Under the pieces are notes generated by a model, which was not told where the DNA came from, did no database searches, and saw nothing but the letters and a program-made list of their open reading frames with translations. The translations under genes and the position numbers were made by a program. 32,712 nt of DNA, from the NCBI GenBank assembly GCA_012034765.1, contig JAAUOU010000050.1, positions 1 to 32,712 on the forward strand, in the 5' to 3' direction. Below are positions 13,447-16,641 of this stretch, piece by piece (the stretch's first letter is position 1; the number at the start of each line of letters is the position of its first letter). Origin of the DNA: Pleurocapsaceae cyanobacterium CSU_1_1 (GTDB lineage Bacteria; Cyanobacteriota; Cyanobacteriia; Cyanobacteriales; Xenococcaceae).

Positions 13447-14106
13447 CTATTTTTGTCCTGTTTGAGCAGCCACTTCATCAGCGAAGTTGGATTCTACTTT
13501 TTCAATCCCTTCTCCCAAGACAAAACGAACAAAACGACGCACCTGAATGTTTTCTCCCAACTGAGATATACTCTGTTTGACTAATTCTTCGACAGTAATA
13601 CTCTGGTCGCGAATATAGGGTTGAGGTAACAAAGCAATTTCGTTTAAACGCTTGTCGATTCTACCAGTAACAATTTTTTCTTTAATATTATCTGGTTTAC
13701 CGTCTAGGTCATCTCGACCCATTTCAATTTCTTTTTCCTTAGCCACGGTACTTTCAGGAATATCGCTGGTTCTCACGAATTCTACGTTAGGACAGGCCGC
13801 AATCTGCATGGCAATGTTTTTAACTAACTCTTGAAACTCTTCACGACGCGCCACAAAATCTGTTTCGCAGTTTACTTCTACCAATACGCCAATTCTTCCG
13901 CCAGTATGAATATAGCTTTCTACCAATCCTTCGGCCGCAACACGACCTTGTTTTTTATCAGCAGAAATAGTTCCTTTTTGACGCAACCATTCGATCGCTT
14001 TGGTCATGTCGCCTTCATTTTCGGTTAAGGCTTTTTTACAATCCATCATCCCCGCACCAGTTTTTTCGCGGAGTTCTTTGACTACTTTTGCCGATATAGT
14101 TGCCAT
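13447..14106 (-). CDS. tsf: Translation elongation factor Ts
   Basis: Nucleotide exchange factor for EF-Tu. The 219-residue length is the usual short cyanobacterial form. It begins with the family signature [19 protein letters not shown] (UBA-like domain, about 9-27) followed by EWLRQKG, and has the exchange motif NCETDFVAR (about 79-87). The C-terminal [26 protein letters not shown] region is complete. It lies 237 bp downstream of rpsB on the same strand, the common rpsB-tsf order, with a long inverted repeat between them. Confidence 0.97.
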
Positions 14107-14343: not shown

Positions 14344-15144
14344 CTATTCTTCGCTATCGGCATCCACTTCTTCGGGTTCTTCCGCTTCTTCTTCTGCGCT
14401 AGGATATTCATCTGTATCGACTCCTTCCTCAAGCTCATCATAATCATCCTGATTATCTGGCTGACCATGGCGACCTTCATAAATAGCGTCCGCTAGTTTA
14501 CTGACGATTAACTTGATCGAACGAATGGCATCATCATTGGCAGGAATTGCCACATCGGCTACTAAAGGATCGCAGTTGGTATCCAAGAGGGAAACCACAG
14601 GAATACCTAGTTTTTGACATTCAGCGATCGCATTGTGTTCCCGCTTTTGGTCGATAATTACGACAATATCAGGCACTTTACGCATCATTTTGATGCCACC
14701 TAAATATTTTTGTAATTTACTCATTTCACGACGCAATACTGAAGCTTCTTTCTTGGGTCTTCTGTCTAAAGCGCCAGTTTCTTCCAGATTTTCAATTTCT
14801 TTGAGTCTTTCTACTCTGGTTTTGATGGTTTCCCAGTTAGTTAACATTCCCCCCAACCATCTTTGGTTGACGTAGAAAGCACCACAGCGAGACGCTTCTT
14901 GAGCAATAATTCCTGCTGCTTGGCGTTTAGTACCAACAAAAAGAACTCGCTTGCCTCGCTCTGAAGAGGAGCGCATATAGTCATAGGCTTCTTCCATTAA
15001 CTGTGCAGTTTGCACCAAGTCAATGATATGTACACCGTTACGAGCAGTATAGATGTATTGAGACATCCGCGGATTCCAACGACGGGTCTGATGACCGAAG
15101 TGAACCCCCGATTCTAAAAGTTCTGCGAGAGAAACTACTGGCAT
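14344..15144 (-). CDS. rpsB: 30S ribosomal protein S2
   Basis: A 266-residue ribosomal protein of the small-subunit neck. It begins [19 protein letters not shown] and has the family signatures [12 protein letters not shown] and [17 protein letters not shown]...[15 protein letters not shown]. The C-terminus carries a highly acidic extension (about 235-266), common in cyanobacterial S2. AAGGAG lies 10 bases before the ATG. The leader upstream has a candidate pseudoknot that overlaps this ribosome-binding site, and a good sigma70-type promoter lies beyond it. tsf follows. Confidence 0.97.
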
Positions 15145-15155
15145 ATTGTTTTTTA

Positions 15156-15223
15156 CTCCTTCGGGTTAATCCTCCATTCAGGGACATTTTTAGTCAAGGT
15201 AAAAACACCCGAAAGCCTGAATG
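15156..15223 (-). promoter_or_regulatory. Candidate rpsB leader pseudoknot (S2 autoregulation element)
   Basis: In mRNA order: stem 1 is CATTCAGG (15223-15216) with CCTGAATG (15182-15175). Stem 2 is TTCGGGT (15213-15207), inside the loop of stem 1, with ACCCGAA (15166-15160) beyond it, so the two cross as an H-type pseudoknot. An extra hairpin TTTTTA/TAAAAA (15205-15200 with 15192-15187) fits between them. The 3' strand of stem 2 runs directly into the Shine-Dalgarno GAAGGAG (15162-15156), so folding would hide the ribosome-binding site. Pseudoknotted S2-controlled rpsB leaders are known from gammaproteobacteria; I know of none described for cyanobacteria. Confidence 0.6.
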
Positions 15224-15258
15224 TGTGAATTGTTTTATTTTGCGTATACTAGTCTAGC

Positions 15259-15367: not shown

Positions 15368-15790
15368 ATGGCATCATTACCTCAATATCGACCCAAAAAG
15401 TTGTCTCTTGGCCCATTAGAAGCCGAAATACTGGATATAATCTGGGATTTAAAAGTAGCTACGGTTAAAAATGTCCACGAGCAAATTTTAAAAGATCCCG
15501 ATCGCGAGCTAGCTTATACTTCAGTAACGACGGTGTTACAGCGATTGACTAGTAAAGGGTGGCTTAAGTGCAGTAAAAAAGGCAAAGCTTTCTCTTGGCA
15601 ACCCCTACTTTCCAGGGAACAAGCCCAAGCGATCCGCTCCTACGAACAGCTTAATGGTTTTTTAGCGGTAAGCAATCCTGATGTGGTGGCAGCTTTTGCA
15701 GACAGCTTAGATACTGCTAGTCTAGAACAAATAGAAGCGATCGCCGAGCGCCTTAATAATATTCGTCGTCAAAGAGAGGAGCAAAGCTAA
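15368..15790 (+). CDS. BlaI/MecI/CopY family transcriptional repressor
   Basis: A 140-residue winged-helix repressor. LGPLEAEILDIIWDLKVATVKNV (about 13-35) and YTSVTTVLQRLTSKGWL (about 50-66) are the usual DNA-binding elements of penicillinase-type repressors. The C-terminal dimerisation helices follow (about 77-130). Its stop overlaps the start of an M56 peptidase (TAATG), as in blaI-blaR1 pairs, where the peptidase triggers loss of repression. It is divergent from rpsB across 223 bp. The operator is probably in that gap, but I could not find a clean TACA/TGTA dyad. Confidence 0.88.
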   Translation: MASLPQYRPKKLSLGPLEAEILDIIWDLKVATVKNVHEQILKDPDRELAYTSVTTVLQRLTSKGWLKCSKKGKAFSWQPLLSREQAQAIRSYEQLNGFLAVSNPDVVAAFADSLDTASLEQIEAIAERLNNIRRQREEQS

Positions 15791-16641
15791 TGCATTTGCT
15801 AGCAATTTCAACCGTCGTCATTCTGGCGCTAATTATCCGTTATCAATTAACTCCCTCCTCTGGAGAATGGTCAAAACGCTGGTATAGAACCTTGTTTCTG
15901 TTTTGTTTTCCTGGGTTACTGCTGCTGACAACGGCAATTACCGTATTGTATATGGGTTGTCATGGAGAAATGTTGGGAGTTAAAGCTGGTTCTGTCGGCT
16001 GTTTTATTTCAGGCAGTTTGATCCTATTTGCCAGCGCTTGCTTGCTTAAATTAGCTATCCAAGGCGATCGCTCGATTCGTCAAGTTCGTAACTATCCAAC
16101 CCAAGTTATTGGTCAAACAGCCGCTCAAATTCTAGAGTTTGATTTGCCCTACAGCGCCCAAATTGGTTTTTGGAAGTCGCAGTTAGTGATTAGCAGGGGT
16201 TTATTAACTACCTTAGATCGCGAACATATAACAGCAGTCATTGCTCATGAACAAGCTCATGTAGAATATCGTGATACTTTTTGGTTTTTCTGGTTAGGCT
16301 GGATTCGCTCTTTTAGTTTTTGGCTGCCTAATACAGAATTATTGTGGCAAGAGTTGCTGTTACTCAGAGAATTAAGAGCAGATCGCAAAGCAGCCGAATC
16401 AGTTGATTTCTTATTGCTAGCAGAATCATTGTTAGCAGTAGCCAAAGCTCCCCTAGAATCTCCTATTTGGTGCGTTAGCTTAAATGATGCGCAAATTGGC
16501 GATCGCCTTCAAGAAAGAATCGATTCTTTATTAAACCAAACTGAACCTGTTCCTGGCGATCGTTGGTATAACTGGAGTTGGTTATATCTTTTGCTGATGC
16601 CCTTATTAACTATTCCGCTGCATTATTCAGGGATGAATTAA
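15790..16641 (+). CDS. M56 family membrane metallopeptidase (BlaR1/MecR1-like)
   Basis: A 283-residue membrane zinc peptidase. Membrane segments lie near residues 2-17, 34-55, 70-90, probably 163-180, and 262-278. The zinc site is HEQAH (153-157) with a downstream ELRADRKAA (about 194-202) as third-ligand region. It has no extracellular penicillin-binding sensor domain, unlike true BlaR1, so the signal must be something else, such as an envelope stress or a partner. Translational overlap with the BlaI-like gene makes joint function very likely: cleavage or induced release of the repressor. Confidence 0.88.
   Translation: MHLLAISTVVILALIIRYQLTPSSGEWSKRWYRTLFLFCFPGLLLLTTAITVLYMGCHGEMLGVKAGSVGCFISGSLILFASACLLKLAIQGDRSIRQVRNYPTQVIGQTAAQILEFDLPYSAQIGFWKSQLVISRGLLTTLDREHITAVIAHEQAHVEYRDTFWFFWLGWIRSFSFWLPNTELLWQELLLLRELRADRKAAESVDFLLLAESLLAVAKAPLESPIWCVSLNDAQIGDRLQERIDSLLNQTEPVPGDRWYNWSWLYLLLMPLLTIPLHYSGMN

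Follow-up and report, generated by a model that had tools for sequence, protein, structure and literature searches.

The leader of rpsB in Pleurocapsaceae cyanobacterium CSU_1_1 as a cyanobacterial form of the bacterial rpsB motif and a probable S2 translational operator

The window analysed here, a stretch of 32,712 nucleotides from Pleurocapsaceae cyanobacterium CSU_1_1 (contig JAAUOU010000050.1), carries on its minus strand the genes of ribosomal protein S2 and elongation factor Ts, preceded by a leader whose parts are given below together with the evidence on which each was placed.

14344 to 15144, minus strand: rpsB, ribosomal protein S2, 266 aa (Pfam PF00318, E 9e-96)
13447 to 14106, minus strand: tsf, elongation factor Ts, on the same strand downstream of rpsB (Pfam PF00889, E 5.5e-35)
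15149 to 15227, minus strand: rpsB motif (S2 leader), limits according to Rfam RF01815 (29.6 bits against a gathering score of 40)
15216 to 15223, minus strand: 5' strand of P1, CATTCAGG (RNA CAUUCAGG) (sequence; covariation in 38 leaders)
15175 to 15182, minus strand: 3' strand of P1, CCTGAATG (RNA CCUGAAUG) (sequence; covariation)
15207 to 15213, minus strand: 5' strand of the pseudoknot, TTCGGGT (UUCGGGU) (sequence; leader comparison)
15160 to 15166, minus strand: 3' strand of the pseudoknot, ACCCGAA, adjoining the Shine-Dalgarno (SD) sequence (sequence; leader comparison)
15200 to 15206, minus strand: 5' strand of P3, the nested hairpin, GUUUUUA (sequence; leader alignment)
15186 to 15192, minus strand: 3' strand of P3, UAAAAAU (sequence; leader alignment)
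15167 to 15174, minus strand: linker (loop 3) GAGGAUUA from P1 to the pseudoknot, within a UGGAGG-UAAC stretch common with E. coli
15156 to 15159, minus strand: GGAG, SD core, 11 nt before AUG (sequence)
15251 to 15256, minus strand: TAGACT, putative TG-extended -10 box, 23 nt before CACA (TGnTAnnnT in 39 of 47 leaders)

The start codon ATG of rpsB occupies positions 15144-15142 of the minus strand, and upstream of it the three pairings announced in the original prediction are present in the minus-strand sequence: P1 of 8 bp, a crossing stem of 7 bp that forms the pseudoknot, and the nested hairpin P3, in which TTTTTA/TAAAAA gives 6 bp with one outer G-U pair. Loops 1 and 3, which had been estimated at about 2 and about 8 nt, measure 2 nt (15215-15214) and 8 nt (15174-15167), respectively. 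The 7-bp pseudoknot ends just before GGAG and is extendable to 9 bp through two further pairs, U-G and C-G, formed with the first two G of this motif. Only 2 nt separate P1 and the pseudoknot, and P2 is thus within the limit described for Cyanobacteria, where it is absent or at most 3 pairs long. Divergently from rpsB, at 15368-16641 of the plus strand, a gene for a BlaI-type repressor overlaps a gene for an M56/M48-type peptidase (PF03965; PF01435; PF05569 just below its cut-off).

When the 108-nt leader was shuffled 2000 times with its dinucleotides preserved, 6 of the shuffles held an H-type pseudoknot with at least 15 bp in total, perfect Watson-Crick stems, L1 of at most 6 and L3 of at most 14 being demanded. 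Pseudoknot-free energy folding of the leader was unremarkable (z -0.75) and lends the fold no support, and RNAalifold returned P1 and two doubtful pairs only; both results were set aside because neither method can show a pseudoknot. The main support for the predicted fold is the comparison with relatives.

This comparison covered the rpsB loci of the best 80 of a larger number of matches, 47 of them cyanobacterial. In all 47 cyanobacterial loci among these best matches, as in CSU_1_1, the core lies directly upstream of rpsB in the order CACA, P1, CGGGUG, P3, the 3' strand of P1, linker and AACCCG, a count in which the 5' half of L022 was placed by the model R1 described below and L046 was read by eye. 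An alignment (A1) of 38 leaders was made from 37 of the 47 loci and the CSU_1_1 leader, with the omission of eight leaders for long or odd loops (L004, L022, L031, L033, L034, L038, L045, L046) and of two as near copies (L014, L037); a wider alignment (A2) holds 69 matches from 86 sources, L004 being misplaced in it. In the 38 leaders P1 is paired in 99.0% of cells and both sides have changed in 7 of its 8 pairs, so that this helix covaries. The covariation score of the whole structure is 0.270 against 0.161 for shuffled alignments and at most 0.106 with slid partners; of the five measures of covariation, the one for further pair types does not rise above the shuffles, 81 of 500 reaching its value. 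P3 is weaker, with 79.1% of cells paired, perhaps owing to bad alignment of a variable loop. The length of the P3 region varies widely in L004, L022, L031, L033 and L034 (more than 100 nt in L004), P1 and the pseudoknot being fixed there.

The pseudoknot is almost invariant in the 38 leaders; it is conserved, but with so little variation in the helix its covariation tells nothing, and more distant members were needed. In each of 67 leaders, which comprise 45 distinct cores, the junction and the 3' extension of P1 can form five or more contiguous pairs, although the inner four pairs served as anchors and their count is not independent, and in L026 and L085 the 3' anchor was set by hand. Further out, 5 of the 67 lack pair 6 and 13 lack pair 7. 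Double changes are confined to two distant genera: pair 5 turns from C-G into U-A in L082-L084, and pair 6 from U-A into A-U in L085 and L087. The covariation that had been proposed as a check on all three helices is thus found in P1 and, in these two genera only, in the pseudoknot. Automatic placement of P1 was wrong in two leaders: that of L026, read by eye, is CAUCCAGG with CCCCGGAUG, an imperfect helix, and that of L046, also read by eye, is followed by an insert before the pseudoknot. This insert of the Gloeobacterales leader is long and occupies the place assigned to P2 in 2009 (PMC2704228). In the six leaders of an outlying family (f31, L101-L106) the core was not identified with confidence, and recurring fragments such as GGGUU/AACCC were the only ones noticed; the Firmicutes leaders aligned poorly on the 3' side and no claim is drawn from them.

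The rpsB motif described by Meyer et al. in 2009, pseudoknot included, was reported explicitly in Cyanobacteria and ranges over most Alpha- and Gammaproteobacteria, a small number of other Proteobacteria, some Firmicutes and Cyanobacteria; in the last of these P2 is absent or very short, and the pseudoknot is present in all taxa (PMC2704228). In a passage of a 2020 survey of new ribosomal leaders, rpsB occurs once, inside a Bacteroidia L13 leader (PMC7247131). A search of structured-RNA families, as had been advised, led to the existing family RF01815, which aligns to the CSU_1_1 leader within a 201-nt stretch at 29.6 bits, below its cut-off of 40 (E about 2e-4); t44 RNA (RF00127) aligns to the same stretch at 28.4 bits against a cut-off of 44 (E about 2e-4). 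Over the whole CSU_1_1 genome, the rpsB leader is the sole RF01815 match at E<=1 (E 0.0011), and t44 gave no match at E<=10. The gathering score of RF01815 was reached in none of 291 genomes of the phylum and none of 14 control genomes, but this cut-off is operational and missing it is no argument against the fold. At E<=0.05 RF01815 gave 21 matches in the 291 genomes, 15 coinciding with sites of R1 and 6 elsewhere, the latter probably due to chance. Among 11 relatives RF01815 matched two at E<=1 and t44 matched one more; on its own the Rfam evidence is modest.

R1 is a model built from the 38 cyanobacterial leaders (37 loci and CSU_1_1). It matches 116 of the 291 phylum genomes at E<=0.1, including two weak matches (E 0.048 and 0.095) on contigs other than that of rpsB, which are probably chance. 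The genomes missed by R1 comprise 20 that are listed, all of the class of CSU_1_1, and 155 more; since the rows are ordered by kinship, R1 seems to have missed none of the genomes from the genus or the order of CSU_1_1. Among the 20 listed, rpsB was located in 19, and a divergent core precedes it in all 19.

The CSU_1_1 leader belongs to the bacterial rpsB motif, in its cyanobacterial form, and this element is already known as a published family. It resembles RF01815 in its position before rpsB, in P1 and P3, in a pseudoknot joining the P2/P3 junction to the sequence 3' of P1 and in the conserved linker letters; it differs in a pseudoknot of 7 bp, against the five predicted outside Firmicutes (PMC2704228), and in carrying CGGGU/ACCCG where the RF01815 consensus has CCGGU/ACCGG. 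With t44 RNA, the rpsB-tsf leader of E. coli and other gammaproteobacteria, it has in common CACACA, P1, the GGGU/ACCC core, the UGGAGG-UAAC linker and the same gene, whereas an extra stem segment above P1 in the t44 model is deleted in CSU_1_1. The E. coli leader carries GGGGU/ACCCC, CACACAC and UGGAGGCAUAACC, and its order CACACAC, GGGGUG, GUGGAGGCAUAACCCC matches the cyanobacterial one, with many of the same unpaired letters; it differs in a 12-nt spacer that separates the pseudoknot from GAGG. Within a 401-nt stretch chosen around E. coli rpsB, the best match of R1 is the leader itself (21.2 bits).

The original prediction had seen in this leader a cyanobacterial analogue of the S2 operator, perhaps independently evolved. 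A related, conserved and pseudoknotted leader is indeed there, as a known motif rather than a new one (PMC2704228), and the suggestion of independent origin fares badly. A cyanobacterial S2 leader that came to resemble the proteobacterial one by convergence would fit the RF01815 score below the cut-off, the absence of P2 and the different length of P3, yet it leaves unexplained the order of elements and the letters outside the helices that are common with E. coli (CACACA before P1; UGGAGG and UAACC after it), the alignment of both RF01815 and t44 at the right place, even if below their cut-offs, and the publication of all these leaders as one motif that includes Cyanobacteria (PMC2704228). Because order and unpaired letters recur in E. 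coli and R1 finds its leader, common descent appears far likelier than an independent origin, which we consider improbable. Chance complementarity, or a sequence conserved for other reasons such as the SD, could be read into the near invariance of the pseudoknot, but the rarity of such folds in the shuffles, the two covarying outer positions of the pseudoknot and, already, the strong covariation of P1 contradict it and make its probability negligible.

What the fold does is a further matter. In E. coli S2 represses its own synthesis in vivo through the rpsB leader, according to two papers (PMC2704228; PMC10931766), and the second, a 2024 review, adds that excess uS2 represses rpsB-tsf translation via the 5' UTR, aided by bS1 (PMC10931766). 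We infer an S2-feedback function for the cyanobacterial leader, conservation and covariation of the fold being the observed part. A constitutive structure that affects mRNA stability or serves as a ribosome standby element, S2 feedback being absent from cyanobacteria, would agree with a literature search in which none of the titles and abstract openings listed reports experimental work on a cyanobacterial S2 leader, and with the 13 of 67 leaders that have no SD to hide; it accounts poorly for a position before rpsB in 47 of 47 loci and in 19 of 19 relatives of the class and for a core that is the same as that of the E. coli S2 operator, and it is judged quite unlikely. The leader is very probably an autogenous translational operator of S2.

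The original prediction had been made conditional on the transcription start not falling inside the element, and nothing suggests that it does: of 47 leaders, 39 carry a TG-extended -10 box, TGnTAnnnT, at 18-26 nt upstream of CACA, whereas 200 mononucleotide shuffles gave a mean of 1.75 and a highest value of 7; the scan placed 47 of 48 leaders, L046 being the exception. The spacing between box and element hardly changes in these 39, and AG-A-AGTTGTC often follows the box (L001-L047). In CSU_1_1 the -10 region is TGCTAGACT, with TAGACT at 15256-15251; a consensus scan prefers instead TTGACT-16-TATAGT, with TATAGT at 15264-15259 (2 sites found, 0.9 expected). Either candidate promoter places the transcription start upstream of P1, and the element would then be transcribed whole.

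The blocking of the SD by the pseudoknot, as originally proposed, is weakly supported: in CSU_1_1 the helix could be prolonged into the GG of GGAG, but the SD core usually lies outside the pseudoknot. An unbroken helix could reach a G of the SD in 5 of 54 SD-bearing leaders (CSU_1_1, L010, L040, L085 and L087), and the 3' strand of the pseudoknot ends 7-21 nt before AUG (L026 and L085 excluded). An SD (GGAG or AGGA) is absent in 13 of the 67 leaders, all of one family (f25, L088-L100) that we take to be probably picocyanobacteria. In all 13 of these leaders the pseudoknot has 9 pairs, and none of those counted is longer; there being no SD after it, control in this family cannot work by SD masking. 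The same leaders keep GGAGG in the linker from P1 to the pseudoknot, some 20-30 nt upstream of AUG. It is conceivable, if rather doubtful, that the fold in this family gates an SD-independent landing of the 30S subunit, or that it shows the linker GGAGG as a displaced SD in one conformation only.

In the mechanism proposed for the S2 operator, the element is a 5'-UTR RNA that consists of P1, P3 and a P2 that is very short or absent, and in which the P2/P3 junction pairs with the sequence just 3' of P1 as a pseudoknot. S2 in excess over 30S subunits would bind the folded leader, perhaps with S1, and the bound protein would stabilise the fold and keep the 30S subunit off the rpsB start; the output of S2 would fall, and that of EF-Ts too if rpsB and tsf share a transcript. 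The occlusion would be mainly steric, with the pseudoknot inside the ribosome landing zone, and is preferred to direct SD pairing because the helix seldom includes the SD and the leaders of the family named above are SD-less.

As regards annotation, the cyanobacterial copies of the motif would go unannotated by RF01815, and R1 gives matches in 116 of 291 genomes, two weak ones away from rpsB included. The mechanism of S2 repression is called unclear in the 2024 review, since the operator there includes neither the SD nor the start codon (PMC10931766), and the cyanobacterial data are compatible with this. The spread of the motif in cyanobacteria offers natural variants, SD-less ones included, for working out how S2 represses its own synthesis.
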